Shown: positions 6,509 to 49,804 of the stretch, piece after piece | Layout of the letters: the number at the start of each line of letters is the position of its first letter | Position numbering within the stretch: the stretch's first letter is position 1 | Source: a virus | Length of the DNA stretch: 64,000 nt | Direction: 5' to 3' (one strand) | IMG/VR virus record: IMGVR_UViG_3300042988_000510 | Span: 26,101 to 90,100 of that record | Notes under the pieces: generated by a model | The model's database searches: none | Told to the model about the DNA's origin: nothing | What the model saw: only the letters and a program-made list of their open reading frames with translations | Translations under genes and position numbers: made by a program

Positions 6509-6531
6509 TCGTGACGACATACTGACCAAAA
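6509..6531 (+). promoter_or_regulatory. Late-promoter-like TCGTGAC motif before portal
   Basis: TCGTGAC is followed by CA at positions 10-11 and TG at 15-16, as in the other copies; the terminal CAT is not kept. It begins right after the tRNA CCA, 40 nt before the portal start. Confidence 0.55.
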
Positions 6532-6548
6532 CACCATAGGGTCATCCC

Positions 6549-8255
6549 ATGTCCGACGCACTCCAGACCGCATTCGACTTTCAGGCTCCAGCCGACGAAC
6601 GCCAGCAGGCGCACACCGAGGCGACCCAGGACGCACTGAACAAGGGGCTGTCCAGCCTTATCCCGCCTGCCGACCTGATGCCGGTCATTGACTGGATCAA
6701 TCAGGACCTGGAGGATCAGGCCATGGCCAAGGCGATGAACAACGTCGTGCAGTTCCCTGGTGGCCGCCAGCGTGACAAGAAAGCCGGCATGAAGTCGGTG
6801 CATCTGGATGATCTGCAACTGTTGATCCGGGGCGAGTGGTATGAGAAGCCTGGCTTCCTGTCACCCGAGGCGATGCGGACCATGATCCAGCAGACGCCGA
6901 TCCTGTCGGCGATTGTCGGCACTCGCATCCGCCAGGTGACACGCTTCTGCCGACCGCAGGAGAGCGGGCGCGGGCCGGGGTTCGAGATTCGCCATGTCGA
7001 CCGCGACCGCGAACTGACTGAATCCGAGCGCGAGTCCGTTATCGTCATGCAGAAGTTTTTCTCGAACTGCGGCATGGAGTTTGATGCACGGCGGCGGCGG
7101 GCGCTCAAGCGCGACAACCTCACCGCGTTCATGTCCAAGCTGGTCCGGGACTCATTGACCATGGACATGACCGCCATCGAAACCGAGATGAAGCGGGACC
7201 GATCCAAGGGTATCGACGGGCTGTATGCCATCGACGGCGCCACGATTCGCCTGTGCGACGAAGACGGCTACCATGGGGATGATTCCATCGTGGCCCTGCA
7301 AGTCGTCAACGGCGCGGTCAGGACGGCTTACACGCCGTTCGATATCATCACCGAGGTGCGCAACCCGCGATCCGACATCGTCATCGGTGGTTATGGGCTG
7401 AGCGAGACGGAGTTGCTGATCAAGGTCACCACTGGTCTGCTCAACGTCCTGAACCTCAACGCCGACTATTTCAACAAGAACTCGATCCCTCCTGGCGTGC
7501 TGCATCTGCATGGCAACTATGCCCAGGAGGACCTGAGCGCATTCCGACGCTACTGGCGAGCGATGATTACCGGTGGCGGCGGCCCTGGCTCCAGCCGGTT
7601 CAGCATGCCGGTGCTGGTGTCCAAGGACCAGGAGTCCAAGGCATCATTCGAGAAGTTCGGGGTGGACGTCGACGACATGCTGTTCGGCAAGTTTGTCACC
7701 TTCCTGACCTCGATTGCCTGCTCGATCTATGCGATGGACCCGAGCGAGATTTCCTTCGAGTCGTTCACCGCCGGCCGGGCGCCGCTGTCTGGTAGCGACA
7801 CCACCGAGAAACTGGCGTCCAGTGTCGACAAGGGGCTGCGGCCGTTGCTGACCTATTTCGAGGACGTGTTCTCGGATTACGTCGTGTCGACCTTCGACAG
7901 CAACTACTGCTTCAGGTGGACCGGGTTGGACGAGGACGACCGGCAGGTGACCGAGGAGCGGGCGCGGCTGGTGCTCACTGTCAATGAGCTACGGGCTCAG
8001 GAGGGGTATGAGAAGCTGGAGGGTCCGTTGGGTGACGCCCCGCTGAATCCTTCCCTGGTTGGGCCTTGGATGCAAATGGCCCAGGCCGGGATGGGTGAGG
8101 ATGTTCCCGGCACCACCGAGGGCGAGGATGGGCAGGAAGGGCAAGCATCACCCGAGGCCGAGGCGCAACTGAATGAGATCGACAGCCTGGCCAGTCAGGT
8201 GGGTGAGGACTTCTGGAAGTCCATGACCGGCGCGACGGTGTTTAAGTTGGGTTAG
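6549..8255 (+). CDS. Portal protein
   Basis: A 568-aa protein in the classic position after terminase and before the Mu F-like head gene. The pattern (acidic Asp/Gln-rich N-terminus, PILSAIVGTRIRQVTRFCRP core, LNLNADYFNKNSIPPGVL, then a C-terminal acidic/Gln tail) matches large myovirus/siphovirus portals. The portal forms the dodecameric ring at one capsid vertex through which DNA is packed and ejected and to which the neck attaches. The end overlaps the tail of a convergent minus-strand gene by 14 bp. Confidence 0.88.
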   Translation: MSDALQTAFDFQAPADERQQAHTEATQDALNKGLSSLIPPADLMPVIDWINQDLEDQAMAKAMNNVVQFPGGRQRDKKAGMKSVHLDDLQLLIRGEWYEKPGFLSPEAMRTMIQQTPILSAIVGTRIRQVTRFCRPQESGRGPGFEIRHVDRDRELTESERESVIVMQKFFSNCGMEFDARRRRALKRDNLTAFMSKLVRDSLTMDMTAIETEMKRDRSKGIDGLYAIDGATIRLCDEDGYHGDDSIVALQVVNGAVRTAYTPFDIITEVRNPRSDIVIGGYGLSETELLIKVTTGLLNVLNLNADYFNKNSIPPGVLHLHGNYAQEDLSAFRRYWRAMITGGGGPGSSRFSMPVLVSKDQESKASFEKFGVDVDDMLFGKFVTFLTSIACSIYAMDPSEISFESFTAGRAPLSGSDTTEKLASSVDKGLRPLLTYFEDVFSDYVVSTFDSNYCFRWTGLDEDDRQVTEERARLVLTVNELRAQEGYEKLEGPLGDAPLNPSLVGPWMQMAQAGMGEDVPGTTEGEDGQEGQASPEAEAQLNEIDSLASQVGEDFWKSMTGATVFKLG

Positions 8256-8619
8256 GCTTGTCCAAGAACGGCTGGATTTCTTCCTCGTAGACCTGTTCCC
8301 AGTCGCCGCCGAGCATTTCCTGTGCGGCGGCTTTGAGGAATTCCTCGCGGGACAGGCCGGTATCGTAGAGGGTTTCCTGGTTCAGGAATTGGGGCTCGAG
8401 CCCGCGATTGTCGGCCAAGTTGCGCAGGTAGACCCGAGGGAATACCCGGGAGTCCGGTTCTGAGTCCGGGTAGATGGCTGCGGCCATGGCCGTGAGTTCG
8501 GCTTGCAGTATCAGGATGTCATCACTTTTCTCGGGGGCATCCGGCAGCACGTCATAGAGCAGGGCGGCGGCCTCATGCGGGGCGAAATGGGTCAGGGTTC
8601 GGAAGTAGGTCATATCCAT
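8242..8619 (-). CDS. Hypothetical accessory protein (125 aa)
   Basis: The last gene of a four-gene minus-strand cassette placed between portal and the head morphogenesis gene. The sequence is acidic and helical with no recognised motif. Its 3' end overlaps the portal stop tail-to-tail, which suggests the cassette was fitted tightly into the operon. Function unknown. Confidence 0.65.
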   Translation of the reverse strand: MDMTYFRTLTHFAPHEAAALLYDVLPDAPEKSDDILILQAELTAMAAAIYPDSEPDSRVFPRVYLRNLADNRGLEPQFLNQETLYDTGLSREEFLKAAAQEMLGGDWEQVYEEEIQPFLDKPNPT

Positions 8620-8628
8620 GGCTGTTTC

Positions 8629-8979
8629 TCAGGTTTTCTGCCCGGGCAGGGCTTGTGCGGCGTACTGTAGCACCTCGACAAAGTGTCCGAGCGACCCGAC
8701 GTGGCCCCAGGTGACATCGTCTGGGCTGGAGCCGTAGTGGTCGTCGTGGGACTCGTGGATGCGGTTCAGGAGTTCCTCTGCCTCCGCATATAGGACCATG
8801 TACCTGTCGAGGGGTTGGATGGAGTTGGGCGATGGCTGTTGCTTTTCGGTTTGCAGCAGTTCCAGCAGACGGATGAGTTCGTTCTCGCAGCATCCGTCCA
8901 AGCCGGGACCACTGATGAAGCCATCAATGATGTCGAACCCGGCTTGCTCTGCGAGTTGGTGGAGGGTTTGGTGTTTCAT
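8629..8979 (-). CDS. Hypothetical accessory protein (116 aa)
   Basis: A soluble acidic protein that starts in an ATGA overlap with the upstream minus-strand gene. The helical middle and the His-rich segment (HESHDDHYG) are visible but do not point to a family I know. It is part of the accessory cassette transcribed from the promoter at 9586-9613. Confidence 0.65.
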   Translation of the reverse strand: MKHQTLHQLAEQAGFDIIDGFISGPGLDGCCENELIRLLELLQTEKQQPSPNSIQPLDRYMVLYAEAEELLNRIHESHDDHYGSSPDDVTWGHVGSLGHFVEVLQYAAQALPGQKT

Positions 8980-9284
8980 GGGGTTTCTCCGGTGGCGGCG
9001 GCTATGGCTGCGCGAATCTTGTCGGCGGCAAGGACCTGTCGCGCATATTTGCTTGCACCTCCCTCGTTGGCTGATGTTTGGGGAACAATGCCGCAGTCAA
9101 CTGCCTCAATCAGTGCCTCAAGCATCTCAGGCGCGGCGGCCATTAGCTTGGCGTTTGCCATTTCAGTATGCCGGTCCAGGCGTCGCCACAACTCGGCGAT
9201 TGCCATTTTTCCGGCAAATACCTCAAGCGATGTCGGCGTGCGATCTTCGACTATGTGCCATGGTCCCGGCGTATGCTTACTCAT
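8976..9284 (-). CDS. Conserved phage accessory protein, HTPGPW type (102 aa)
   Basis: The N-terminus MSKHTPGPW and the central MANAKLMAAAPEMLEAL are hallmarks of a widespread small-protein family in phages and prophages, of unknown function (from memory). It shares this central block with the next gene (NAKLFAAAPELLAVL), and both end in similar RAAIA...TGET segments, so they are paralogues. It overlaps both cassette neighbours. Confidence 0.75.
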   Translation of the reverse strand: MSKHTPGPWHIVEDRTPTSLEVFAGKMAIAELWRRLDRHTEMANAKLMAAAPEMLEALIEAVDCGIVPQTSANEGGASKYARQVLAADKIRAAIAAATGETP

Positions 9285-9558
9285 TGGTTTCTCCTGTGGC
9301 CCTAGCTATGGCTGCACGGGCTTGGTCGTAGCATCCATCTGCGCCTCCGCCAGGGTAGCTTGACAACCAATTAAGCGACCGCTGAAGAACCGCAAGAAGC
9401 TCAGGCGCGGCCGCGAACAATTTCGCATTCGCAGCGCAGGTTTCCTCTGGGCTGTAGTCGACCCGGATCATGAAGTCACCGATGATCTTGTCATTGGCGT
9501 CCAGCACGGTGATCTGGTACGGGCCGACGATCTTGAATGGGGCGGGGCTGTGGGGCAT
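9277..9558 (-). CDS. Conserved phage accessory protein, paralogue of 8976-9284 (93 aa)
   Basis: The first gene of the minus cassette. It has a TTTCCTCC-type Shine-Dalgarno on the minus strand (GGAGGAAACC before ATG). The block NAKLFAAAPELLAVL and the C-terminal ARAAIARATGET match the following gene. A TTGACA-16-TATTCT promoter with the palindromic operator in its spacer lies just upstream. Function unknown. Confidence 0.72.
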   Translation of the reverse strand: MPHSPAPFKIVGPYQITVLDANDKIIGDFMIRVDYSPEETCAANAKLFAAAPELLAVLQRSLNWLSSYPGGGADGCYDQARAAIARATGETNE

Positions 9559-9585
9559 GGTTTCCTCCTGTGATTTCTTGTGGCC

Positions 9586-9613
9586 AGAATAGCACTGCTA
9601 TTCGGCCTGTCAA
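9586..9613 (-). promoter_or_regulatory. Sigma70-like promoter with operator in the spacer (minus cassette)
   Basis: On the minus strand, TTGACA (9613-9608), a 16-bp spacer, then TATTCT (9591-9586). The perfect palindrome AATAGCACTGCTATT occupies 9588-9602 and overlaps the -10, so a protein bound there should block polymerase. Confidence 0.78.
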
Positions 9614-9632
9614 GCGCAATCACTCGGTTTTG

Positions 9633-9655
9633 TCGTGATGCCATCATGATTCCAT
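9633..9655 (+). promoter_or_regulatory. Late-promoter-like TCGTGA motif before head gene
   Basis: TCGTGAT with CA at 10-11, TG at 15-16 and CAT at 21-23. The ATG of the head gene is at position 22, and no Shine-Dalgarno is present, so a transcript starting near the CAT would be leaderless. Confidence 0.6.
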
Positions 9656-10796
9656 GACCCTTCTACTCGATATCACCGACCTTCCGGCCCAGTACGCTAA
9701 CTCGGGGCTGGACCTCATGCACAAGGCCATGGCCGAGGGCGCTGACGGCTTTGTGCCGCACGAAAACCCGTACCTGACCCAGTTGGTCGAGGTGTTCCAT
9801 CAACGCGGCGTGACGCAGCTTGACGCGATGTGGGGCGAGTTACTGGACATCCTGCACGGCAGGCATCCGTTCGACCCGAACGCGGCGCATGGCCGCCTGA
9901 CGCAGGCGGAACTATCGCTTCTGGAGCAGTTGCTGAAAATGGGCGACCCAGATCAGTACACAGTCAACGACTGGATGTTGCTGGTCGACTACTGGCTGGA
10001 GCGGTATCTGCCTCCGACCTTCGCGGTCACCCAGGCGACCTGGCTGACGACACGGGCTGTTTTTATGGGGCGGCTGCAGGCGGTTATGGCCAAGCCAGCC
10101 GATATTGATCAGGCTCTGTCCCTGGCTCCGGCCCAGCCGATGACGGCGCCGATTGCTAAGGTCATCGAGTTCGGTCAGGCGCACGCTACCGAGAGCATCG
10201 TGTCCCTGGGTGATGCCGCCAAGCACAAGGTCAAGAACGCCATCATCAACCATCTCGAGGAGCAGTCCCTGGCGGGGAAGCAGTTCACGACCGGGCTGGA
10301 AGGTTTGCAGTCCAAGCTGTTCGATCAGTTTGGCGACATGAACAAGGATTGGCGCCGGATCGCCATCACCGAGACCGGCGAGATGGCCAATCAGGCGTTT
10401 GTGGCCGGGCAGCCGCCGGGCGCCAAGCTCAAGCGCATCGAGATGTACCGCGATGCCTGCCCGTTCTGCACCAAGATCAACGGGCTGATTGTCACCGTGG
10501 TTCCGCCGGATCAGCGGTTCAAAAATCCGTGGACGCATGTTTGGGTTGGCAAGACCAACATAGGCCGGTCGTCCAGCCCTATGAAGAAGGTGGGCGACAA
10601 GCTGGTCCCGCGTTCGCCCGATGAAATGTGGTGGCCTGCTGCCGGTTTGCAACACCCGAACTGCAGGGGCTCATGGGTGCCAGAACTGGTGGTTCAGCCT
10701 GGGGATGATCCAGAGTTCCACGACTATCTCAAAAACTTATGGCAATCTGCGGATAGCCAACCCACAACGGAGACCGAAGATGCTGCTGTTCTTTAA
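9654..10796 (+). CDS. Minor head/morphogenesis protein (phage Mu gpF-like)
   Basis: A 380-aa protein with a C-terminal domain like Mu gpF/SPP1 gp7: ACPFC near residue 268 and HPNCRG near residue 333, preceded by ITETGEMANQAF. These proteins sit inside or at the neck of the head and are encoded just after the portal. Here the minus cassette 8242-9558 separates them. The start codon coincides with the end of the TCGTGA motif and has no Shine-Dalgarno. Confidence 0.85.
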   Translation: MTLLLDITDLPAQYANSGLDLMHKAMAEGADGFVPHENPYLTQLVEVFHQRGVTQLDAMWGELLDILHGRHPFDPNAAHGRLTQAELSLLEQLLKMGDPDQYTVNDWMLLVDYWLERYLPPTFAVTQATWLTTRAVFMGRLQAVMAKPADIDQALSLAPAQPMTAPIAKVIEFGQAHATESIVSLGDAAKHKVKNAIINHLEEQSLAGKQFTTGLEGLQSKLFDQFGDMNKDWRRIAITETGEMANQAFVAGQPPGAKLKRIEMYRDACPFCTKINGLIVTVVPPDQRFKNPWTHVWVGKTNIGRSSSPMKKVGDKLVPRSPDEMWWPAAGLQHPNCRGSWVPELVVQPGDDPEFHDYLKNLWQSADSQPTTETEDAAVL

Positions 10797-11166
10797 AGCC
10801 CACGTCAAAACCTACACCCGCAAGGACGGGACCGTCGTCAAGGAGCACGATGATAAACGCCATGCTGCCGGAGCGAAGCCTTCGACTTCGCCCAAGGGTG
10901 GCGCCAAGAAGTTACCCGGTCATTGGATGGATGCGCATGACCACGCAGTCGAAGCGTCGTATGCTGCGTGGAATCACGGGGAGCCGCATGAGGATGCGAT
11001 CAAGTCGCTCAAGAACAGCATCAAGCACCACAGGGCTGCGGCCAAGGCCGCAGTGGATGCCGGGGACGATGATGCTGCGCAACTGCATCTAGGCAAGGTC
11101 AAAAATCACCAGCGGTCGATTCAGCAGCATGAGGACCATATGAAAAGATCGAAGGGGGATGGGTGA
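10780..11166 (+). CDS. Hypothetical structural-block protein, His/Lys-rich (128 aa)
   Basis: It starts at ATG 10780 after ACGGAG, overlapping the head gene end. It is rich in His, Lys and Ala with helical C-terminal repeats (AAAKAAVDAGDDDAAQLH). The N-terminus MLLFFK is nearly identical to the next protein's MLLLFK. No known domain. It may be a head-associated accessory protein. Confidence 0.6.
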   Translation: MLLFFKAHVKTYTRKDGTVVKEHDDKRHAAGAKPSTSPKGGAKKLPGHWMDAHDHAVEASYAAWNHGEPHEDAIKSLKNSIKHHRAAAKAAVDAGDDDAAQLHLGKVKNHQRSIQQHEDHMKRSKGDG

Positions 11167-11501
11167 TGTTGCTGCTGTTCAAATCACGCACACCCGAGAC
11201 CCGTGCCGAACTGGCCAAGGAGCACAAGCGACTGGTGGCCGTGCTCCGCTCCCCCTCGCACAAGGACGACCTGGAGGAGGCTGATAAGCAGGAGGAAGAG
11301 CTTGAGGAGTACGACCTGGCCAAGGCCATCACCCGCAGTCGGGCCGACTCGGCGCTCAACTACCGGCTGCAGATGATCGATGCGCAGTTGGGTCCGTTGG
11401 CGGCGGCGTCCAATGTCGACCCGGCGTCCCGGGCACGCTATGAGTCCCTCGTTCAGGAACGCTATACCATCATGGTCGCATTGGGGGATGCGAGTATTTA
11501 G
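11166..11501 (+). CDS. Hypothetical helical protein (111 aa)
   Basis: It starts in an overlap with the preceding stop. The sequence is strongly charged and helical (DDLEEADKQEEELEEYD), likely a coiled coil. The N-terminal MLLLFKSR echoes the previous gene. It closes the head transcription unit before the plus-strand accessory cassette. Function unknown. Confidence 0.65.
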   Translation: MLLLFKSRTPETRAELAKEHKRLVAVLRSPSHKDDLEEADKQEEELEEYDLAKAITRSRADSALNYRLQMIDAQLGPLAAASNVDPASRARYESLVQERYTIMVALGDASI

Positions 11502-11504
11502 TTC

Positions 11505-11532
11505 TTGCTTCTGTGAATAGCATTGCTATTAT
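11505..11532 (+). promoter_or_regulatory. Sigma70-like promoter with operator in the spacer (plus cassette)
   Basis: TTGCTT (11505-11510), 16-bp spacer, TATTAT (11527-11532). The perfect palindrome AATAGCATTGCTATT lies at 11516-11530, overlapping the -10 exactly as at 9588. The first start codon is 34 bp downstream. Confidence 0.75.
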
Positions 11533-11565
11533 GTGCGCGTGTTCAATTCAACCAAGAGACGCGCC

Positions 11566-11982
11566 ATGACTGACCTTCAATCCCAACTCAACCAGTTCAC
11601 TGGAACCGAGACCTACCACCGTCACTTTATCAGCCGCCGGCTGCAGTGGACCGATGGTGTCGAGTTCTTCGCCAAGCATGCTAAGGCGTACTGGCTGATC
11701 GATGCCATTGCCATATGTGTGAACGGCCGTAATGGGCCGGTGCCCGATGCCGTTCCCTGTAAGGGTCCTTTCGGCATCGTCGTGCTTGATGTTGTCGAAA
11801 ACGACAGTAGTCGCTTTGCCATGCTGCAGGTTCTGTCCGACTACGACGAAAACGACGAAAGCGTCGGCGATCAGCTTTGGTCGGCGATTATCGGGGGTAC
11901 CGACTGCCTGGTCGGTCGGTGGCTTTTCTATCTTGTGGCCAACGACCAGCACGTCGTCATGATGCTGCCAAAGGAGTATTGA
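11566..11982 (+). CDS. DUF6876-type protein (138 aa)
   Basis: The pattern FTGTETYHRHFISRRLQWTD followed by KAYWLIDAIA matches, from memory, the DUF6876 family found in phages and mobile elements, of unknown function. It is soluble, with no signal. The ATG at 11566 was chosen over an upstream in-frame start because that one would lie at the predicted transcription start. It is the first gene of an accessory cassette ending at the terminator 13740-13765. Confidence 0.72.
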   Translation: MTDLQSQLNQFTGTETYHRHFISRRLQWTDGVEFFAKHAKAYWLIDAIAICVNGRNGPVPDAVPCKGPFGIVVLDVVENDSSRFAMLQVLSDYDENDESVGDQLWSAIIGGTDCLVGRWLFYLVANDQHVVMMLPKEY

Positions 11983-11985
11983 GCC

Positions 11986-12189
11986 ATGAAAACCCTGCAA
12001 ACCGTGAACGGGCACCAAGTGGTGATCCACGATATGAACGGCACTGGGTCATTCCCGATCAAGGGTACGATCATGAAAAAGCCACCGCATGACGGGAATC
12101 CGCTCAGGTATGAGATTTGGCAGGCCAATGGGCGCGTCAGTGTGTTCAACCCGTCTGGGTGGGATTTGGTCATGGAGGCACGGTCATGA
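11986..12189 (+). CDS. Hypothetical protein (67 aa)
   Basis: A small, probably beta-rich protein (VNGHQVVIHDMNG, NGRVSVFNPSGW). It lies 3 bp after the DUF6876 gene and its stop overlaps the methyltransferase start, so it is co-transcribed with both. No family recognised. Confidence 0.6.
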   Translation: MKTLQTVNGHQVVIHDMNGTGSFPIKGTIMKKPPHDGNPLRYEIWQANGRVSVFNPSGWDLVMEARS

Positions 12190-13715
12190 GCGAGTTGGTC
12201 GAGTCTTTCGAGTTTTTCGCGCCCGTGTCCACCGGCATGATCGAGGGCATGGTGGCAGGCTATCAGGCCATGCGCCACAAGATCGAACAGGTGGCTGCCC
12301 TGTTCCAGGGTGACAGGGCCAAGGTGGTCGACTACTTCATTGACGGCAATCGCCGGATGGATAATTCGCGCTATTCCAGCCTATCGGCCGAGCAGATATT
12401 CCGGCTTGACGGCGCTGTGGCATCGCTCAATGCCGAGTATTGGCGCCGGGCCATGGCGGCTACCGACGTCTGGGATTACATGCCACAGGCGCGGCGGGAC
12501 GAGTGGAACAAATCCATCCTGGATATGACCTGCCCCGACTTCGAGGAAGAAACGGTGCGGGCCACGCTCCAAACCCTGATCCACAGCCGCGCCAAGTTCT
12601 TCGCTGAGCGGGTCGACGGCATCTTTCGGGCGCTGTCGCATGAGCATGTCACCAACAACCCGATGGGGTTCGGCAAGCGCATGATCATCAACTACGCCAT
12701 GGATGGCTTTGGCTCGATCAACAGCAGCCGGGCCGGGTATGTGAACGACTTGCGGTGTGTCATCGCCAAATTCATGGGCCGGGATGAACCGGGCTGGGGG
12801 GCGTCCACCCACATGGTCCGCGACCTGAAGTCGTGCTTTGGCGAGTGGCGGCCGGTCGATGGCAATGCCTTCCGCATCCGGCTGTACAAGAAGGGCACGG
12901 TGCATCTGGAGGTGCATCCGGATATGGCTTGGCGCCTGAACGCGGTGCTGGCCAGTCTGTACCCGGCTGCGATCCCTTCGCAGTTCCGCACACCACCGAA
13001 GACCAAGCCCAAGGACTTTGTCCTGATGGACCGGCCGTTACCGTTTGCCGTGATCGAGGCGCTCTATAACTCGCGGGAGTTCCCGGGCAACAAGATTTCC
13101 TGCTACATCAGCGATAAGCATCTGCGGGCTGAGGTCGGGCATGTGCTGGAGGCGATTGGCGGGGTGCATGTGGGGCTGGGCGATTACCAGTTCGACTTCA
13201 ATCCCAAGGAAGTGATTCAGGAGATCGCCCGCACTGGCTGCATTCCGGACTCGCGCAGCTATCAGTTCTACCCGACGCCGGCCGATCTGGCCGAGAAGGC
13301 GGTGGAGTTGGCTGACATTGGTCCCGAGCACGCCTGCCTGGAGCCCAGCGCCGGCAATGGTGGGCTGGCGGATTTCATGCCCAAGGACCGCACGACCTGT
13401 ATCGAACTTAACGACCTGCGCTGCAAGGTGCTGGATGCCAAAGGCCACAGATGGATGCAGGCCGATTTCCTCGCGCTCGATCTGAACGAGCGATATGACC
13501 GCATCGTCATGAACCCGCCATTTGCTGATAACCGCTGGTGGCGGCACACTGAGAAAGCCGTGAGCCTGCTGAAACCCGGCGGCCGGCTGGTGGCCATCTT
13601 GCCGGAGTCTGCCAAAAAGTCCGACCTGCTACCCGGCGTGGTTAAGCACTGGCACGGTCCATGGTCATTCCCGGGCACGTCCATATCGGTGGTGATGCTG
13701 GTGGTTTTCACTTAA
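12186..13715 (+). CDS. DUF4942 protein with N6-adenine methyltransferase domain
   Basis: The N-terminal two-thirds matches DUF4942 (NPMGFGKRMIINYAMDGFG, with RPL and SCYISDKHLRAEV segments). The C-terminal part is a class I methyltransferase: SAM motif LEPSAGNGGLADF near residue 384 and catalytic NPPF near residue 441, typical of N6-adenine DNA methylases. No restriction partner is adjacent, so it is probably an orphan methylase protecting phage DNA or altering regulation. The ATG at 12186 overlaps the preceding stop (ATGA). Confidence 0.85.
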   Translation: MSELVESFEFFAPVSTGMIEGMVAGYQAMRHKIEQVAALFQGDRAKVVDYFIDGNRRMDNSRYSSLSAEQIFRLDGAVASLNAEYWRRAMAATDVWDYMPQARRDEWNKSILDMTCPDFEEETVRATLQTLIHSRAKFFAERVDGIFRALSHEHVTNNPMGFGKRMIINYAMDGFGSINSSRAGYVNDLRCVIAKFMGRDEPGWGASTHMVRDLKSCFGEWRPVDGNAFRIRLYKKGTVHLEVHPDMAWRLNAVLASLYPAAIPSQFRTPPKTKPKDFVLMDRPLPFAVIEALYNSREFPGNKISCYISDKHLRAEVGHVLEAIGGVHVGLGDYQFDFNPKEVIQEIARTGCIPDSRSYQFYPTPADLAEKAVELADIGPEHACLEPSAGNGGLADFMPKDRTTCIELNDLRCKVLDAKGHRWMQADFLALDLNERYDRIVMNPPFADNRWWRHTEKAVSLLKPGGRLVAILPESAKKSDLLPGVVKHWHGPWSFPGTSISVVMLVVFT

Positions 13716-13739
13716 CGCTTTTCCTGTGAGGCGATCCTT

Positions 13740-13765
13740 GCCCGGCTTCGGTCGGGCTTTTTTTT
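13740..13765 (+). terminator. Intrinsic terminator of the plus accessory cassette
   Basis: Stem 13740-13746 with 13751-13757 (including one G-T pair) closed by a TTCG tetraloop and followed by eight T. It ends the DUF4942 cassette just before the next late-promoter-like motif. Confidence 0.9.
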
Positions 13766-13778
13766 GCCCGGTGGAAAA

Positions 13779-13801
13779 TCGTGACGCCACCATGGCGGCA
13801 T
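13779..13801 (+). promoter_or_regulatory. Late-promoter-like TCGTGAC motif before protease
   Basis: TCGTGAC, CA at 10-11, TG at 15-16, CAT at 21-23; the protease ATG is position 22. It starts 13 bp after the terminator's T-run. No Shine-Dalgarno is present. Confidence 0.65.
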
Positions 13802-14699
13802 GAATGATGAAGCCTTGCTTGCGCACATCCCTGAGCACTTTGCGTTTAACGCACTACTGAAGGCCACGCCTCATGAGGAGAATGGCGGCCGGTTCATTTA
13901 CGTCGAGGCCAGCAAGGAATCCCGCGACCAGCAGGGCGAGATTGTCCTGGCTAAGGCGCTGCAGGAGTCGGTCGACGTATTTATGAAGTTTGGTGTGGTC
14001 GATCTTGACCACAAGTCCATGCCATCCGTGGCCAGGCAGTACGGCATCGAGCATCCGGACGAATGGATCATCGGGCAGCCGAAGCAGGTTAGTTTCGATG
14101 GTGGCACCACCTTCGTCAAGGCGCAGCTACGGCAGGGTGAATCCGTGCTCGCTAACCGCGCCAACCGAGTTTGGGAAGGGCTCACCAAGCTCAACCCGCC
14201 AGACCGCTATTACGCATCCGTTGGTGGATCGGTACTGGCGAAAAGCGTGGAGATTGATCCACTCACGAAAGCCAGGACCCCGGTCATCACCAAGACTCGC
14301 TGGGACAACCTGGCGCTGTCGCTTTCTCCTGTGCATCCGGACCTGAGCCCGGCAACCACCATCCCTGTCGGCACGTTCGCCAAGTCGCTTGGCGGCTTTG
14401 TGCTCTCGAAAACCCTGACGGCTGGTTATGGCACCGACTCGGCTGTATTGGCCGGTGGCGCTGCTCTCCGGCTGCAATCCCTGCACGGATCACCCCTCTC
14501 CTATCTCGACTTTCATCGTGAGCTATCTACCGCGCTGAAAAGTCGTGACAGCAAGCTAGACGGCAACGAGCACCCGCTCAAATCTCGACTTGTCGGTTGG
14601 GCAGAGTCCATCGGCGTGGAGGGTAATCAGGCGGTGTCATGGGTGCATCGGTTTTTGTTCGACGCGGCCAAAGATTTGAAAACTCGGAGATCACGATGA
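13800..14699 (+). CDS. Probable prohead maturation protease (XkdF-like)
   Basis: A 299-aa protein encoded before scaffold and capsid, the usual protease position. Candidate catalytic residues are the His in DLDHKS (near residue 69) and the Ser in YYASVGG (near residue 138), which fit the serine prohead proteases. The C-terminal region has AGYGTDSAVLAGGAALRLQS, almost the same as the N-terminus of the major capsid protein (AGYGTDVAALTGGGALRIQS), an unusual sharing. Family assignment is by context and motif order, so moderately sure. Confidence 0.72.
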   Translation: MNDEALLAHIPEHFAFNALLKATPHEENGGRFIYVEASKESRDQQGEIVLAKALQESVDVFMKFGVVDLDHKSMPSVARQYGIEHPDEWIIGQPKQVSFDGGTTFVKAQLRQGESVLANRANRVWEGLTKLNPPDRYYASVGGSVLAKSVEIDPLTKARTPVITKTRWDNLALSLSPVHPDLSPATTIPVGTFAKSLGGFVLSKTLTAGYGTDSAVLAGGAALRLQSLHGSPLSYLDFHRELSTALKSRDSKLDGNEHPLKSRLVGWAESIGVEGNQAVSWVHRFLFDAAKDLKTRRSR

Positions 14700-15286: not shown

Positions 15287-15312
15287 CCCCTGAAATCAAG
15301 AGGAAACCCCAA

Positions 15313-16761: not shown

Positions 16762-16790
16762 CCGGTTCCTACCTGGGGCTGAAGCCTGTG

Positions 16791-16828: not shown

Positions 16829-16839
16829 GAGGGTACTTT

Positions 16840-17040: not shown

Positions 17041-17043
17041 ATC

Positions 17044-17893: not shown

Positions 17894-17895
17894 AA

Positions 17896-17918
17896 TCGTG
17901 ACGGCAAACTGAAGCCAT
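17896..17918 (+). promoter_or_regulatory. Late-promoter-like TCGTGAC motif before lysis cluster
   Basis: TCGTGACGGCA, TG at 15-16 and CAT at 21-23, right after the terminator. The first lysis gene starts 42 nt after the motif start and has CGGAG. Confidence 0.65.
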
Positions 17919-21936: not shown

Positions 21937-21938
21937 TG

Positions 21939-21961
21939 TCGTGACGGCAGACTGATGGCGT
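21939..21961 (+). promoter_or_regulatory. Late-promoter-like TCGTGAC motif before fibre block
   Basis: TCGTGACGGCA, TG at 15-16 and CGT (not CAT) at 21-23. It begins 2 bp after the preceding stop and lies 44 nt before the start at 21983, which has CTGGAG. Confidence 0.65.
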
Positions 21962-33496: not shown

Positions 33497-33514
33497 GGGC
33501 GCGATTGATCTAAG

Positions 33515-33537
33515 TCGTGACCTCACAATGGGGTCAT
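33515..33537 (+). promoter_or_regulatory. Late-promoter-like TCGTGAC motif before neck genes
   Basis: TCGTGAC, CA at 10-11, TG at 15-16, CAT at 21-23. It starts 41 nt before the neck gene, which has TGAGGA. Confidence 0.62.
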
Positions 33538-39756: not shown

Positions 39757-40012
39757 TTGGTGGTATCGGGATCGCTACCGGCTGACGGTCACTGATGGGC
39801 GGTATCTCGATGCCAGCTATGACGACATGCTGCTCGACTTCTGGGCCAACTACTATGCCCAGATGAAAGCCAGCGGCAAGGAGCAACTGTTCGAGAACGA
39901 TGATTTTGACCTGGACGTCAAGCGCATCATGGACGAACTGGAAGCTCAGGATGATGGTTGGGAGCCTGTCGAGGACTGGAGCCTGGACAAGCAAGGTCTG
40001 CTGGATGATTGA
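39730..40012 (+). CDS. Tail chaperone frameshift extension (T-like part)
   Basis: The frame -2 relative to 39403 is open from 39677 to 40012 and encodes AIDWWYRDRYRLTVTDGRY and further acidic sequence that looks protein-like but has no good start of its own. GGGCGA at 39729-39734 lies inside the overlap and could be the slip site; I recall this hexamer for the Mu -2 shift, but not with full certainty. The fusion would be about 200 aa. Confidence 0.65.
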
Positions 40013-40017
40013 GAAAG

Positions 40018-40042
40018 AGCCCCGCGAGTCGGGGCTTTTTTT
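40018..40042 (+). terminator. Intrinsic terminator before tape measure unit
   Basis: AGCCCCG (40018-40024) pairs with CGGGGCT (40030-40036) around a 5-nt loop; T-run to 40042. The late motif starts 2 bp later. Confidence 0.92.
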
Positions 40043-40043
40043 A

Positions 40044-40066
40044 TCGTGACGCGAAACTGTACCCAT
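40044..40066 (+). promoter_or_regulatory. Late-promoter-like TCGTGAC motif before tape measure
   Basis: TCGTGACG, A at 11, TG at 15-16 and CAT at 21-23. It follows a terminator and lies 42 nt before the tape measure start. Confidence 0.65.
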
Positions 40067-40085
40067 CTCACTCCGGGACCATGAC

Positions 40086-43421: not shown

Positions 43422-44809
43422 TGGCAGCCAAGATTCGGCATTACCGGCCCGACATCCGGATTATCGTCCGGCACTCGGTGCATATCGAGCAGCAGTTGGG
43501 TGACATCGGTTCGGTCACGATCAGCAAGAGCATCGAAGCGCCCTGCGGCGAGTTCAGTATCACGTTCCCGGATCACCCGTTCCATAACGGCACGGTGCCG
43601 ATCATTGGCGGGCCACTGATTGTCTCGCGGCGGTCGCTTTACGACATCCTCGACATCCTCGACCCCATCGAGATTCAGATGAAACGCTGGCAGGAGGAGG
43701 ACCCGACCGATCAGGACTGGGTCACTGTGCTGCGCGGTTTCGTCCGAGCGATTGGCCGGAATGAGGAAGTCGGCGGTGACGGCCGGGTGCAACGGTCGGT
43801 GGTGATTGCCGGCCAAGATTGCGGCGCGGCGTTCCTCATGGAGCAGTTGGGGCAGTACATCTCGATTGCCGAGAACCCCGGGAATACCTCGCCGACATGG
43901 ATGAAGTACCTCCAGGAGTTCGACCTCAGCCCAACCCCTATGGCGCTTGCGCCGTTTGTCTGGGATGTGGCTGAAAGCACCACCAAGGACATCATGGCTA
44001 CGGCCGGCTGGGCGTTCACACCCCTGCTTTATGTGGAAAAAGGCTATGCGCTGCCTTGGGTGGCGTTCAGTTCCGAGGGCTCGGTGTGGGAACTGATGAA
44101 ACGCTACTCGGCCGCGCCTTGGAACGAACTTTTCGTGCGCGAGGGCAAGAAGTCTCCCGAATTGGTGTTCCGCCCCACTCCGTGGGCGGATGCCACCGGC
44201 AGATGGCTGCCAGACACCAACCTGGACAGCGTGAGTTTCTGGGAAATACCCATGCGCAATATCATCGCCCTGTCCGCACACCGGGATGATGTGGATCAGG
44301 TCCAGCATGTCTTTGTGCAGAACGCCAACGACCATTTGAGCGCCGGCTATTACGTCTTGCTGGAAGGTCACGGTAATTTCAACGAGGAACTGCGACCAAA
44401 GTTCGGCGACCGCATTCAGACCGTACAGGAGTTTGTCGGCCCAGCCACATCGCCCATGAGCCTCCCGGAGCAGGAGCAGGAGCAGGCTTATATCGACTAC
44501 CACGCCTGGCTCATCGAGCGCACCGAGTGGCTGGTCAAAGCCGGTCAGGACGTCTACAAGCTCGAAAAGGGCTCCATCACGATTAAGGGTGATCCGCACA
44601 TCCGTGTGGGCGATTACATCTCCGTGCAGCGTGGCGCCATCCACTGGACCGGCTATGTTGTCGGGGTTTCGCACAAGTTCGCTCCCTACAAGAACTACTT
44701 GACGACCATCGATTACATCCGCTCCGACCAGTGGATTCAGCGGCAGAAGGTCCAGGAGCAGATCGGCGGCGCTGGCGTTTGGGATTTGGAACGGAAGCAA
44801 GAGGCATGA
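43421..44809 (+). CDS. Baseplate hub protein (462 aa)
   Basis: The next gene after the tape measure. The pattern (GDIGSVTISKSIEAPCGEFS, then a hub-like beta domain) and length fit the gp27/gpD hub that holds the tail spike. The C-terminal region has IKGDPHIRVGDYISVQRG. Identity is by position and fold impression. Confidence 0.7.
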   Translation: MAAKIRHYRPDIRIIVRHSVHIEQQLGDIGSVTISKSIEAPCGEFSITFPDHPFHNGTVPIIGGPLIVSRRSLYDILDILDPIEIQMKRWQEEDPTDQDWVTVLRGFVRAIGRNEEVGGDGRVQRSVVIAGQDCGAAFLMEQLGQYISIAENPGNTSPTWMKYLQEFDLSPTPMALAPFVWDVAESTTKDIMATAGWAFTPLLYVEKGYALPWVAFSSEGSVWELMKRYSAAPWNELFVREGKKSPELVFRPTPWADATGRWLPDTNLDSVSFWEIPMRNIIALSAHRDDVDQVQHVFVQNANDHLSAGYYVLLEGHGNFNEELRPKFGDRIQTVQEFVGPATSPMSLPEQEQEQAYIDYHAWLIERTEWLVKAGQDVYKLEKGSITIKGDPHIRVGDYISVQRGAIHWTGYVVGVSHKFAPYKNYLTTIDYIRSDQWIQRQKVQEQIGGAGVWDLERKQEA

Positions 44810-45894
44810 TCAGCAATACCCAATCCACTAACACCCTGCGGCTGGCCAAGGTCACGCATGTGCATCCCGAGGGTCAGAAGCTCGAAGTCCTGTTCCTCGA
44901 TAACGGCGACTACGGTCGTGACGTGCAGGTCATGTCGCCCTATGCCGGTACGGACTTCGGTTTTACCGGTGGCATCCCGGCGCCCGAGGAAGAGGGCCAC
45001 GAACCAAATCGTCGAACCGATCCCAACAAGCGCGACATCATCGCGGTGATTGCCAACCTGCAGGGCCGGCACTTGTGCCTGGGTTACTTGTACCCACAAG
45101 TGACGCACATGGCCTTCACTAAAGACTCAGACAAAAACCGCATGATCGAGCGGCACACGTCGGATTGGTATCGGACGGTGGATGACGAAGGCAACATGGA
45201 TATGGTGCATCCGGCCCTGGCAGTAGCTTTTCCCACGACCTTTATTCGCATGGGTGTCGGGCCAATTCCGGCGGTTCTGACAGGGCGAGACTATGACGGC
45301 CGGTGGGCACTCAAGCGTAATTTGTTCATGCCGGCGATGATCACGATTGCCGCCCCGGCTGGAGTGTTGATTGCCGGCGGCGATGAAACTATTGAGCTGG
45401 GTGGCGCGGCCAGTTTTGCTGCGTCTGGTGCGGCATCTTCAGCGCCGGCTGGCGGCGCCATGCTCATGTCAGCCGAGGAGCCCGTTGATTGGATCGCGGC
45501 GGCGGCCCTAGCGGATGCCCCGGCCGAGTGCGTCGACGAGAACGAGAATAACATCTGTGACGATTTGGAGCGCCTCCGTGAGAGATATACGGTCGTGCTA
45601 CGCATGGGTTCAGGTGGCTGCTTTGTGCGCAGCAAACGACACAGCATAGACATAGCTGTGGACGAGTTAAAGCCAGCGTTCGTGTTCCGCACGAAAACCG
45701 GAACATTTTCGATCTCTGATGACCGCATCAGCGCCTATATCGGAGGGTCCTCCGGCATAAACATCGAGAAAGACCGCATCACGTTGCAGGTTGGCAACAC
45801 CAAATTGGAACTGACGGCGGACGGCATCACTACGACCGGCAACATGACCACCGAGGGCGTCCACACCGATGCCAACGGCGTTCATGCGTCGTGA
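44806..45894 (+). CDS. Baseplate spike protein (gpV-like, 362 aa)
   Basis: Starts ATGA-overlapped with the hub. The N-terminus has an OB-like domain (VTHVHPEGQKLEVLFLDNGD), the middle a hydrophobic/Ala-Gly stretch, and the C-terminus repetitive beta segments (DRITLQVGNTKLELTADGI) as in spikes. This is the membrane-piercing tip. The stop overlaps the next late-type motif. Confidence 0.72.
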   Translation: MISNTQSTNTLRLAKVTHVHPEGQKLEVLFLDNGDYGRDVQVMSPYAGTDFGFTGGIPAPEEEGHEPNRRTDPNKRDIIAVIANLQGRHLCLGYLYPQVTHMAFTKDSDKNRMIERHTSDWYRTVDDEGNMDMVHPALAVAFPTTFIRMGVGPIPAVLTGRDYDGRWALKRNLFMPAMITIAAPAGVLIAGGDETIELGGAASFAASGAASSAPAGGAMLMSAEEPVDWIAAAALADAPAECVDENENNICDDLERLRERYTVVLRMGSGGCFVRSKRHSIDIAVDELKPAFVFRTKTGTFSISDDRISAYIGGSSGINIEKDRITLQVGNTKLELTADGITTTGNMTTEGVHTDANGVHAS

Positions 45895-45911
45895 CTGGAT
45901 ACTTAGGTCAT
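45889..45911 (+). promoter_or_regulatory. Late-promoter-like TCGTGAC motif before baseplate gene
   Basis: TCGTGAC, A at 11, T at 15 and CAT at 21-23; TG is TT here. The TGA inside the motif is the preceding stop. The next ATG is position 22. Confidence 0.52.
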
Positions 45912-46446
45912 GGCAGCACTCATTCCAGCACCGTCACAGAAAGACCGCCCGGTCGGCTTGGTCGTGCTCGACACGGGGTTTGTCGGCATCCCGATCCCCT
46001 GGTTGTATCTGTTCTACCCGAGACCGGAGGATTTGCAGTACACGCATCCCAGCCGAGGAACCGTCATCCAGACCATGGACGGCGGCTTTGTCGATGACTT
46101 CGGTGAGGGCCTGACTGACATCATTGTCACCGGCAACACCGGCTGGAATGGCGGCTTGTTGCCTGGCGAGATCAAGTTTTACGCGCTCCGCGACATGGTG
46201 GTTATCCGCTATCACCAGATGCGCAAGGCCAAGGCCGATGCGGGCCTGCCGATTGACTCGGTCAAGATGTACTGGGCGGACACACTGAATCTTCTGGTCT
46301 ACGAGGTCTACCCGGTCAGTTTCACTGCCCGCAAGAATCGACAGAGACCGCTGCTCTACCAGTTCACGTTGCGATTGACCGGCCTGAACCGGGTCTTTGG
46401 CCTGGCCGATCTGATCCCGGGCGGGCTTGGCGGGATACCTACATGA
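45910..46446 (+). CDS. Baseplate-associated protein (178 aa)
   Basis: Follows the spike. The region LVVLDTGFVGIPIPWLYLFY and the basic C-terminus are seen; no family is certain. Genes here (between spike and wedge) usually encode baseplate adaptor proteins. The start overlaps the motif. Confidence 0.6.
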   Translation: MAALIPAPSQKDRPVGLVVLDTGFVGIPIPWLYLFYPRPEDLQYTHPSRGTVIQTMDGGFVDDFGEGLTDIIVTGNTGWNGGLLPGEIKFYALRDMVVIRYHQMRKAKADAGLPIDSVKMYWADTLNLLVYEVYPVSFTARKNRQRPLLYQFTLRLTGLNRVFGLADLIPGGLGGIPT

Positions 46447-47084
46447 CGCCGGCTTACGCCACACTGTTCAACCCTTCGGCTGCGGCTGGCCTGGCTATTG
46501 CGCGGCTCCGGGAAACGGCGAACCTGCTCACTGCTGAGGGTATACGCGGCAAGGACCCCAGTTTTGAGGAGTGGGTGACCATTGTCGACATTGACCGGGT
46601 GTTGCCAGAGACGCCATCGCCAGGGCGCTTGGCGCCGCTGCTGCGGGCGGCTGGACGAGTGGCGACCTGTGCGGCTGTTTTGATTGACGCATCAAGTGAC
46701 TCCCTGAAAACGGGCAACCAGCAGTCATTGGAAACGGCGGCGGCTTTTGCTCGGGCTTCCTGTGTGCTGACGCAGACGCTGGCATCCCGCCAGTTAAATC
46801 TGCCATCCGACTTTGCCAACCTGTTTTCCGGGCTGGACGCTCAGCGATGGAGTCGGTGGTTGAGATCCGTGCACGCCGATATCAGCCTGTCTCTGCGGGA
46901 GCATTTGGCGGAACTGATGGTGGCCGACTGGACCGAGGACAGTCAGATGCGCAGCATCCGGGCCGACTCTGACGGATCGGCTGTTATAGCCATGCTATCC
47001 AATGACCCGATGCTGCATTCGTCATCCTGGGACGTCGAGTCATTGGCTGAACGGCTGGCGGCCGGTATCGAGGTGTCCCTGTGA
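46443..47084 (+). CDS. Hypothetical baseplate-block protein (213 aa)
   Basis: Overlaps the previous stop. Ala/Leu-rich and mostly helical. No motif recognised, role inferred only from its place before the wedge genes. Confidence 0.55.
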   Translation: MTPAYATLFNPSAAAGLAIARLRETANLLTAEGIRGKDPSFEEWVTIVDIDRVLPETPSPGRLAPLLRAAGRVATCAAVLIDASSDSLKTGNQQSLETAAAFARASCVLTQTLASRQLNLPSDFANLFSGLDAQRWSRWLRSVHADISLSLREHLAELMVADWTEDSQMRSIRADSDGSAVIAMLSNDPMLHSSSWDVESLAERLAAGIEVSL

Positions 47085-47683
47085 GCCAACTCCGGGATTA
47101 CCGTATCCAGCAGGGAGATAGCCTGCGTTCGATTGCCTATCGGCAGTACCACGACGCCAGTCGCTGGCGCGAAATCGCCGACCTGAACGGTCTGCGTTAC
47201 CCGCACGTTATCGACTCACTGAGCCCGTCAGATCGCCTACCGGGTACCGTCATCCTGGGTGACACCATCCGGCTGCGGACACCGGCTTATGCGCTGTCCG
47301 ATCCTCCGGCAAATGTCCTGTTCGGTCAAGACCTCAATCTGGATCGCGGATCGCTGCAGGCGGTTGATGGCGATCTGGCATTGACGGCTGGCATTGATAA
47401 TTTCCGGCAGTCCCTGCAGCACCGGGTCAAGACCTTAACGGGTGAACTGCTGTACTACCCGGCCTATGGCTGCAATGTGCAACTGGCCCTCGGCCTAAAG
47501 CTGGAGCCATTGATCACGCTGATGGGTGCGGCCTGGGTTCAGGAATCCCTGCGGCAGGAGACTCGACTATCATCCGTCGACCGCGTCATTGCCCAAGCGT
47601 CCGGGGATAGTCTTGAAGTGAGTGCCCACGTGACCGCTATCGGACAAAACACACCCGTTGATCTGAATTTAGTGGTGCCCTGA
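47081..47683 (+). CDS. Baseplate wedge: LysM-gp25/W fusion (200 aa)
   Basis: GTG start. Residues 1-65 carry a LysM-like module (IQQGDSLRSIAYRQY, LNGLRYPHVID) that may bind peptidoglycan. Residues 95-200 match the gp25/GPW wedge (GIDNFRQSLQHRVKTLTGEL). In many phages these are separate proteins, so this is a fusion. The wedge starts sheath assembly. Confidence 0.82.
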   Translation: MSQLRDYRIQQGDSLRSIAYRQYHDASRWREIADLNGLRYPHVIDSLSPSDRLPGTVILGDTIRLRTPAYALSDPPANVLFGQDLNLDRGSLQAVDGDLALTAGIDNFRQSLQHRVKTLTGELLYYPAYGCNVQLALGLKLEPLITLMGAAWVQESLRQETRLSSVDRVIAQASGDSLEVSAHVTAIGQNTPVDLNLVVP

Positions 47684-48780
47684 TGTATCAGCCCAAGGCG
47701 TTTTTTGACATCGCATCCGACATGGTGGAAGCCTGTCGGACATCCTCCGATGACCTGACCGATTTCAATATCGGCTCGGTTGTTCGGACCTTGCTGGAGG
47801 CGCACGCGACCGGCATCGAAGACCTCTATATCGCGTTCAGCCAGGGTGTGCAGGATGCCATTCCGGCCGCGCTTTATGCCGCCTTCGATTTTGAGCGGCT
47901 ACCGGCGGCGAATGCCCGGGGCAAGATTCGGGTGACTATTACCGGGTCGGTCGCGGATTTTGTACTGCCTGCTGGCTCGCGGTTATCCACGGCCGGCGGC
48001 GAGGCCAATTTCGAGACGGATGCCGAACTTACCATTCTGGCTGGCGAGACGGTCGGCGAAGTCTCTGCGGTGTGCATGACCAGTGGCGTGGTCGGCAATG
48101 TTCCGGCCAACACCATCACACTGTTGACTGGTGCAAGTCTGTCAGTGCTCGCAGTCACCAACCCGATTGCTTTCAGCCAGGGTTCGGACGTCGAAAGCGA
48201 TGCGCAGATGAAGGCGCGATTCCAGGCGTTTATTTCCTCGATTGCCCGCGCCACTCCGGCCAGTCTGGAGTATGCCGCCCGCGTCCAGAAAATATACAAC
48301 GACGACGGCACGATCCTTGAGCAAGTGGCCCGGGTAGCGATCCAGGAGTATGCAGGCTATGTCAGGTTGTTCATCTATAACGGGTCCGGGTCGACTTCAA
48401 ATGCGCTGGTGGATCAGGTGCAGAAGGCCATTGATGGCTACTACGACCCCACTACCGAAAGCACGGTCCCTGGTTATCGGGCTGCGGGTGTGTTTGTCTG
48501 GGTTGGCGCCATGGCTGAGAAGTCGGTATCTCTGACTGCGAGCGTCAATCTGTTGCCCGGCTACGGGCCGACTGCGACCATGGAAACGGCGGTCAGGACC
48601 GCTCTGGAGTATGCCATCCGCACCAGTCCGTCTGGTGAGCCACTGACCGTGGCCAAATTGCAAAATGCGGTCTTGGCTACCCCGGGTGTGCGTGACGTGC
48701 TGATTACCCCTGCGCAATCGATTGCCTGCGCGGCCAATGAGGCACTCATCCCTGGAACACTGACTATCCAATGGACCTGA
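47683..48780 (+). CDS. Baseplate J-like wedge protein (365 aa)
   Basis: It matches the P2 J/T4 gp6 family in length and pattern (FEAD-type segments, GSDVESDAQMKARFQAFISS). Baseplate J links wedges around the hub. The start overlaps the previous stop. Confidence 0.88.
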   Translation: MYQPKAFFDIASDMVEACRTSSDDLTDFNIGSVVRTLLEAHATGIEDLYIAFSQGVQDAIPAALYAAFDFERLPAANARGKIRVTITGSVADFVLPAGSRLSTAGGEANFETDAELTILAGETVGEVSAVCMTSGVVGNVPANTITLLTGASLSVLAVTNPIAFSQGSDVESDAQMKARFQAFISSIARATPASLEYAARVQKIYNDDGTILEQVARVAIQEYAGYVRLFIYNGSGSTSNALVDQVQKAIDGYYDPTTESTVPGYRAAGVFVWVGAMAEKSVSLTASVNLLPGYGPTATMETAVRTALEYAIRTSPSGEPLTVAKLQNAVLATPGVRDVLITPAQSIACAANEALIPGTLTIQWT

Positions 48781-49787
48781 GAAAATCCACGCTCAGATAC
48801 CTGCACTCGGTTTTCGATGATGACCCGGGCGCGACCCTTGGGCTGACGGTCGAGAACGAGAGCGCATTTTCCTGGGCGGTGTCGGGCGAAACGCTGACGG
48901 TTGACGGGCAGGCCATCGTCCTTCGTGGCCATAGCCTGGCGGACACGGCACAGCATCTGCGTTCACTGGGTCTATCCGCATCCGTGCCTGCCGCACTGGA
49001 GTCCCGCAGCGCGGTGTCGCTGATCGACGGGGCGGGGCAGGGCACGACGGTTCAGCTGCAAGTACAGAACTCGATCCTGTGGGCGCTGAGTCTACCGGGC
49101 GCCTTGGCGCAGCTTGAAGGTCAGCGATTTATTACCGATGCACTGGCGCAACTCAATTTCATGACGGCCGGCGGCGGCTGGCTCGATCTGTGGGGCCGAT
49201 ATTTCGACGTGCCCCGGCTGGATGACCAGACGGACGCCGAGTATGCCGAGTTCATCAAGCGGGAAGTCTTGCGGCCGAGGTCCAGTGTGTTCGCCATCCA
49301 GACCGCCGTTCGGGACTGGACCGGGCGCAGCATTGTGATTCGGGAGCCTCATAAGGAGCTTTTCATCTGGGACAAGTCTCGCTGGGACGGTACCGATTCG
49401 CGTTGGCAGGACGGGCGTTTCTACACGTTCGGCACCTTCGAGCCCCGAGCGCCGATTGATGACTGGTCGTCCATCGTGCCCGTGATCCAGCGCAATCGCG
49501 CACTGGGAAGCGTCATGCTTCCTCCGGTTTGGGGCCTGGATGCAGTCGTGCTGACGATCAATCCAGGACCGATCCCGGTTGGGTTCTCTGGTCTGTCTGA
49601 AGTCAGGACGAGCACGGTTGACGGCGAACTGGCGGGCAATGCAGGTGCTGGCATGGCTATCACGCAATCCGTACCCGTGTTTCCTCCGGCCGCCCGCTGG
49701 ACTGATGTCGGCGCATGGGATACCCGAACCTGGCAGCAGGGCGCGAACCCCTATGGCGTGGGCGTAGCCATCAGCAGTTCGTCGTGA
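48771..49787 (+). CDS. Tail/baseplate protein (P2 I-like position, 338 aa)
   Basis: Overlaps J by 10 bp. N-terminal and middle domains look like tail protein I (DALAQLNFMTAGGGWLDLWG, QTAVRDWTGRSI). It should link baseplate to fibres. The stop overlaps a late-type motif. Confidence 0.68.
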   Translation: MDLRKSTLRYLHSVFDDDPGATLGLTVENESAFSWAVSGETLTVDGQAIVLRGHSLADTAQHLRSLGLSASVPAALESRSAVSLIDGAGQGTTVQLQVQNSILWALSLPGALAQLEGQRFITDALAQLNFMTAGGGWLDLWGRYFDVPRLDDQTDAEYAEFIKREVLRPRSSVFAIQTAVRDWTGRSIVIREPHKELFIWDKSRWDGTDSRWQDGRFYTFGTFEPRAPIDDWSSIVPVIQRNRALGSVMLPPVWGLDAVVLTINPGPIPVGFSGLSEVRTSTVDGELAGNAGAGMAITQSVPVFPPAARWTDVGAWDTRTWQQGANPYGVGVAISSSS

Positions 49788-49804
49788 CGGCATCCTGAGC
49801 ACAT
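49782..49804 (+). promoter_or_regulatory. Late-promoter-like TCGTGAC motif before fibre operon
   Basis: TCGTGACGGCA, TG at 15-16 and CAT at 21-23. The TGA is the upstream stop. The next gene starts 41 nt downstream with CAGGA. Confidence 0.62.

Follow-up and report, generated by a model that had tools for sequence, protein, structure and literature searches.

A repeated box-plus-hexamer motif as the probable late promoter of a family of ~90-kb myoviruses, with a candidate cysteine-rich activator

The window analysed here, 64,000 bases long, corresponds to bases 26101-90100 of a 90,100-base virus record (IMGVR_UViG_3300042988_000510), a myovirus encoding TerL, portal, protease, major head protein, sheath and baseplate genes as well as an integrase. 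A 23-bp motif in front of its late gene blocks had been reported at ten places in this window, and was proposed to serve either a phage RNA polymerase (RNAP) or a late activator. The repeated motif is real: all ten coordinates are correct, five copies matching the 23-mer exactly, compared to 0.00 expected in shuffled sequences, and five carrying one or two mismatches. These putative late-promoter copies are listed below in window coordinates, together with one additional match to the motif core, the two start-codon classes (leaderless and leader) being those discussed further on; SD stands for a Shine-Dalgarno sequence.

6508..6531, + strand: putative late-promoter copy before the portal gene; ATG 6549, leader class; begins 4 nucleotides (nt) past tRNA-Thr
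9632..9655, + strand: putative late-promoter copy; ATG 9654 = position 21 of the motif, leaderless class
13778..13801, + strand: putative late-promoter copy before the prohead protease gene; ATG 13800, leaderless class; terminator 13740-13757 just upstream
17895..17918, + strand: putative late-promoter copy right after a terminator; ATG 17938 with SD
21938..21961, + strand: putative late-promoter copy before a structural block; ATG 21983 with SD
33514..33537, + strand: putative late-promoter copy; ATG 33556 with SD; stem from position 13 toward the start codon
36117..36140, + strand: putative late-promoter copy; ATG 36139, leaderless class; N-terminus conserved among orthologues
40043..40066, + strand: putative late-promoter copy right after a terminator; ATG 40086
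45888..45911, + strand: putative late-promoter copy before a baseplate-region gene; ATG 45910, leaderless class
49781..49804, + strand: putative late-promoter copy overlapping the preceding gene's stop codon; ATG 49823 with SD
14542..14557, + strand: extra match to the core, within the protease gene and ~96 nt ahead of the following open reading frame (ORF; 14639)

In agreement with the original prediction, structural blocks follow the sites, with portal, head, prohead protease, sheath-region, tail and baseplate proteins being encoded there, and three sites come after an intrinsic terminator, predicted by a tool at 13779 and recognized by reading the sequence at 17896 and 40044. When a position weight matrix built from the ten sites is run over the full record, these sites score 26.5-34.0 bits, all on the + strand, the next scores being 14.5 (genome position 16125) and then 10.3, and every site stays within the top 10 in a leave-one-out procedure. 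The core TCGTGAYNNNANNNT is found 12 times on the + strand, 0 times on the - strand and 0 times in the reversed control, one of the 12 matches (window 14543) being internal to a gene. The 14.5-bit match constitutes an eleventh site, located outside the window and 42 nt before an ORF of 2355 amino acids (aa). This ORF (genome 16167-23234, 3168-10235 of locus L007) contains DUF5710 and a C-terminal ADP-ribosyltransferase domain, and has relatives in the phages Touem01, ST4 and Mecenats66; its product is probably a packaged polyvalent protein, and the 16125 site therefore fits a late role. Besides, a weaker motif-like site of 12.2 bits is seen at window 16797, 43 nt before an ATG just past the major head gene.

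Searches with TerL and capsid proteins gathered eight named phages (Mecenats66, Touem01, ST4, Dolphis, Jeremy, phiT5282EW, fHe-Yen8-01 and PHB04) and dozens of IMG/VR contigs, which define a family of ~90-kb myoviruses, several of them with an integrase. The loci of ~70 relatives hold 222 non-redundant motif sites, compared to a single one in the reversed-sequence control, and this conservation extends over phages from several proteobacterial hosts. The core mostly occurs 8-15 times per genome, and up to 28 times, mainly on the late strand, whereas reversed-pattern controls give 0-1; low counts are recorded for Mecenats66 (2), the IMG/VR record G007 (3) and two short IMG/VR fragments (1 and 4), while the comparison phages P1 and T7 show 1 and 3 matches, respectively. 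A literature search on the motif letters, or on a described promoter in these phages, returned nothing relevant.

The arrangement of the copies argues for a promoter. Inverted late genes carry an inverted motif, divergent back-to-back copies each face their own gene, and T-runs are present at most 15 nt upstream of the motif at 21 of the 222 sites, compared to 1 of 222 random places. Given this agreement in strand between motif and gene, the diverging copies, the sites right after terminators, the restricted spacing to the start codon and the conservation between phages, we consider it very probable that the motif is a promoter. A repressor or stoperator site, or an RNA translational operator, would be in line with the integrase-bearing members of the family, with the short palindrome formed by the GTC-GT-GAC box and with the stems linking motif and start codon at part of the sites. 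However, the dependence of motif strand on gene strand, the need for a fresh start right after some terminators and the behaviour of the core positions as a -10 hexamer make such an operator very unlikely, and the pairing of variable motif positions is near shuffled expectation. For this last reason, evaluated over 204 sites, a full palindromic hairpin within the motif, which the 36118 copy had suggested, was rejected, and the same objection applies to an N4-type hairpin promoter.

The refined motif derived from the relatives reads GTCGTGAC-N2-[cANMAT], that is, a GTC-GT-GAC box directly 5' of a -10-like hexamer. In an alignment of 205 sites, conservation is seen at columns -1 to 7, A10 and 13-14, is weaker at 20-23 and is absent upstream of position -1; in the hexamer (c A N M A T, positions 9-14), A10 and T14 reach 100%. 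Two statements of the original prediction have to be revised accordingly. The 3' CAT does not belong to the core, as strong conservation stops at T14 and CAT mostly represents the start codon, holding the first two bases of the ATG at 9633, 13779, 36118 and 45889. In addition, the motif was said to lack normal -10 and -35 boxes, which is not right for the former, positions 9-14 fitting a -10 hexamer. Nothing is conserved 5' of the box, and at some sites terminator T-runs end a few bases away from it, so that there is no room for a -35 element there. Positions 9-14 are likely to be a -10 hexamer with +1 at about position 21. The invariant A and T of the hexamer correspond to -11 and -7 when +1 is placed at 21, and GTCGTGAC would then form a box at about -22 to -15 replacing the -35 element, a numbering that depends on the +1 that we infer. 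In the AT-richer Mecenats66, TATAAT, TAAAAT or TAGAAT can be seen by eye at a comparable place before several late genes.

A compact element of ~23 bp at a restricted distance from the start would also suit a phage single- or multi-subunit RNAP (T7-, N4- or phiKZ-like), since promoters of phage-encoded RNAPs are of about this size. Nevertheless, no T7-type RNAP (PF00940) was detected in this phage and seven named relatives, with a T7 control at 1e-109, and no Rpb2 (beta-subunit RNAP) domain was found in this phage, although a very diverged RNAP could escape these searches. As the core moreover splits into a box and a -10-like hexamer with two key sigma70-type melting positions, a phage RNAP is very improbable. 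Of the two possibilities put forward in the original prediction, it is thus the activator-aided late promoter that is well supported.

The distance from motif to start codon, counted in nt from the motif start over the 222 sites, points to the position of the transcription start. The start codon lies at 20-24 in 140 sites (98 at 21, 33 at 22), a spacing at which 2.6% of random places are expected to show an ATG followed by an ORF, although the procedure for choosing start codons favoured an ATG at 19-25, a point that counts against the reading proposed here. Only two start codons fall at 25-34, 62 are further away, and 18 sites have none within reach. An SD accompanies 6 of the 140 close sites and 43 of the 64 far sites, none of these 43 beginning before position 21. 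Positions 20/21 of the far class, which are not bound to form part of a start codon, read C in 47% and A in 48%, respectively. Spacing, SD pattern and this far-class CA agree on a +1 at about 21, in which case most late mRNAs would be leaderless.

Leaderless mRNAs are likely for the close class. Among the close starts with an ORF of at least 100 aa, 137 are ATG and one is GTG, and leaderless translation is reported in a review to drop when the start codon lies further from the 5' end and when AUG is changed to GUG (PMC9031893). Most orthologue families stay within one start class, and their N-terminal sequences can be aligned beginning at the close ATG, as illustrated by M-I-x4-P-L-x2-G-N-A in a family with 46 close-start members, while portal genes begin at the corresponding residue in both start classes. 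A T4-like start at position 13 was rejected, in view of the lack of SD before position 21, of the CA initiator at 20/21, and of the stems, which would hide the start site within the late RNA itself. To our knowledge, leaderless phage mRNAs are isolated cases, whereas leaderlessness would here prevail among the structural genes of a whole phage family. The mRNA of lambda cI is one such case, in which the AUG is at or very near the 5' end with no SD (PMC9031893).

Regarding the far class, stems of at least 8 bp are present at 19 of 57 leader sites, compared to ~3% in shuffles; their 5' arms mostly begin at positions 12-16, upstream of the proposed +1, and their 3' arms often end at or near the ATG. 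In folding predictions with the RNA cut at position 21, the opening of the start region amounts to 0.122, compared to 0.041 in control genes (p=9e-6). However, shuffling of the 5' arm alone retains 0.090 of the 0.122 accessibility gain, a result that tells against general gating, and hairpin gating could therefore concern a subset of the leader sites at best; whether it does in such a subset is evenly balanced in our judgement. The precedent is found in T4 genes e, soc, 49 and I-TevI, where a stem closes only in read-through RNA, the late start removing its 5' arm (PMC3014915). Gating of this type is known for a few genes in T4 and would fit about a third of the leader-class sites here, most late genes seemingly using a 5'-terminal AUG in place of a stem.

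As to the protein that could recognize the box, two adjacent cysteine-rich (Cys-rich) genes, at genome 14179-14670 and 14613-14969, show conservation among the named relatives. Out of 50,697 phage records, each of the two is present in just nine, those that also contain the close TerL relatives. The first encodes a protein with an invariant CxxC...CxRC...CxSC-NR, for which a confident model was predicted (predicted local distance difference test, pLDDT, of 89), and is preceded by ordinary sigma70-like boxes, as expected for pre-late expression. This protein is the candidate late activator, an assignment that its distribution makes fairly probable. A relative of the second, 118-aa protein in fHe-Yen8-01 (L318 789-1050) is annotated as particle associated and may be packaged.

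The same association is encountered outside phages. A search with the phage protein retrieved three E. coli plasmids and a 112-kb Rhodovastum plasmid, itself a prophage of the family, and a search with the 375-aa plasmid protein, to which the phage Cys-rich profile gives a 69-bit match, found relatives on 53 plasmids. Eight of them, several closely related, were read (loci L352, L353 and L355-L360: AP027466, NZ_CP033380, NZ_KM107845, NZ_OX291797, OW849322, NZ_CP137194, NZ_CP018944 and CP056414); they come from Escherichia, Serratia, Enterobacter and Citrobacter and measure 11.8-14.8 kb, with one of 27 kb. All eight carry the motif, in 2-4 copies each, which adds up to 22 sites scoring 17 bits or more over 121 kb, the reversed control not exceeding 7.7 bits, and the motif stands directly 5' of the Cys-rich protein gene in three bacterial loci (L339, L349 and L350). 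Since the Cys-rich protein and the motif co-occur while little else is seen in common between plasmids and phages, the two would work together. The plasmids are enterobacterial and non-mobilizable; the annotated ones encode a DNA invertase/recombinase and VapE/DUF927/primase-type replication genes, often with ProQ/FinO or a lytic transglycosylase. On account of these VapE/DUF927-type replication genes and of the invertase, it is tentatively suggested that they are phage satellites. The possibility that the plasmid protein is a fusion of both Cys-rich proteins was abandoned, as the second module was not confirmed.

Some additional features of these plasmids can be mentioned. In L352, the motif copies at 1056 and 7239, both on the + strand, are followed by AACCAAACC / GGTTTGG stretches, which are possible invertase crossover sites; one crossover-like stretch is near the invertase gene, and the promoter may face an invertible segment. 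The 27-kb L359 (pEC224_4) has an annotated blaCTX-M-14 at 2762-3637 beside ISEcp1 and other insertion elements.

Several further observations weigh against a late promoter read by host RNAP with this Cys-rich protein. Searches of Pfam, PHROGs, NCBIfam and PDB with the protein returned no match, nor did a fold search with its model; Mecenats66 encodes it and yet has few full motif copies; and some leaders contain terminator-like hairpins 3' of the motif, which is odd for a promoter. Such hairpins, with T-runs, are seen between motif and ATG in the relatives L204 (3896-), L201 (16103-) and L203 (43388-). Moreover, the second Cys-rich gene co-travels with the first in phages. Another activator, namely the zinc-ribbon-like 118-aa neighbour or an AraC-type protein, could act on the motif while the Cys-rich protein merely travels along, the 118-aa gene being in the same nine phage records and AraC proteins being encoded by Touem01, PHB04 and ST4. 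This is nonetheless unlikely: an AraC-type activator was discarded because this phage lacks an AraC domain, and the 118-aa profile scores below 0 on the plasmid protein, whereas the Cys-rich module occurs on the plasmids together with the motif. Finally, the -12 base is usually C instead of T, which is poor for sigma70. This C and the strict box would be equally compatible with an alternative sigma and with an activator, and a phage sigma factor (T4 gp55-like or extracytoplasmic function-like) might guide host RNAP to the element as a whole. Sigma region 2 was searched for and not found in this phage, nor was region 4 in the eight phages, gp55-like proteins being however very diverged, and the box abuts the -10 with a 2-nt gap, unlike the usual -35/-10 spacing, so that a sigma factor appears quite unlikely.

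The layout proposed here has a known counterpart. Phage P1 possesses 11 late promoters in which a short inverted-repeat box at -22 replaces the -35 upstream of the -10, and which are activated by one phage protein, Lpa, with host RNAP (PMC10695390, PMC8198154). For instance, its LPpac promoter reads ATGTGACTT-N4-TACCCT. The Lpa promoters and the present motif would share the same layout, with a box at about -22 (-22 to -15 here), a -10 and no -35, but differ in box letters and spacing. No Lpa homologue was detected at E<=1 by phmmer in five phage proteomes, and the motif system is therefore not a member of the P1 Lpa family; the Cys-rich family profile also gives a negative score on Lpa. We know of no leaderless arrangement for P1 late genes.

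Another comparison concerns P2 Ogr and P4 Delta, the small Cys-rich, zinc-binding late activators of a helper phage and of a satellite able to live as a plasmid, whose sites read TGT-N12-ACA near -55. Cys-rich activators common to helper and satellite would be the shared trait, whereas the Ogr/Delta site lies near -55 and the present box adjoins the -10. Neither Cys-rich protein matches the Ogr/Delta family in a Pfam scan at E<=1, and the literature searched for Ogr/P4 and for the plasmid group yielded nothing usable.

We consider it probable, on balance, that the motif is the late promoter of this ~90-kb myovirus family, used by host RNAP with the Cys-rich activator and coupled to leaderless or gated translation. 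The motif itself, its conservation and strand, its spacing to the start codons, the SD pattern and the association of the Cys-rich gene with the motif on phages and plasmids are seen directly in the sequences. According to this model, in which we infer transcription start, host RNAP use, activator identity, leaderless translation and translational gating from sequence, the phage activator, with the Cys-rich protein as best candidate, would bind the GTC-GT-GAC box and aid host RNAP, which would start at about position 21 on a CA initiator. For most late genes, the A of the ATG would be at +1 or at most 3 nt off and the mRNA would be leaderless, while other late genes would have a leader of at least 20 nt, usually with an SD; at about a third of the leader sites, the start would be masked by a stem, but only in read-through RNA, which still contains the 5' arm from upstream of +1. 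Whichever the class, late proteins would be efficiently synthesized only from transcripts begun at the late promoter. More broadly, and with somewhat less than an even chance in our estimation, the Cys-rich proteins may represent a previously undescribed activator family with its own promoter class, GTCGTGAC adjoining a -10, common to ~90-kb phages and small enterobacterial plasmids as their possible satellites, and with late-gene translation tied to the start site, for the most part by leaderless mRNAs and in the other cases by stems that the start site disrupts.

This provides an easily testable model of late regulation for a large and almost unstudied phage family, in which leaderless translation is proposed as the main mode for structural genes. 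The presence of the candidate activator and of its target promoter on small plasmids would, in addition, point to a possible helper-satellite relation like that of P2 and P4.

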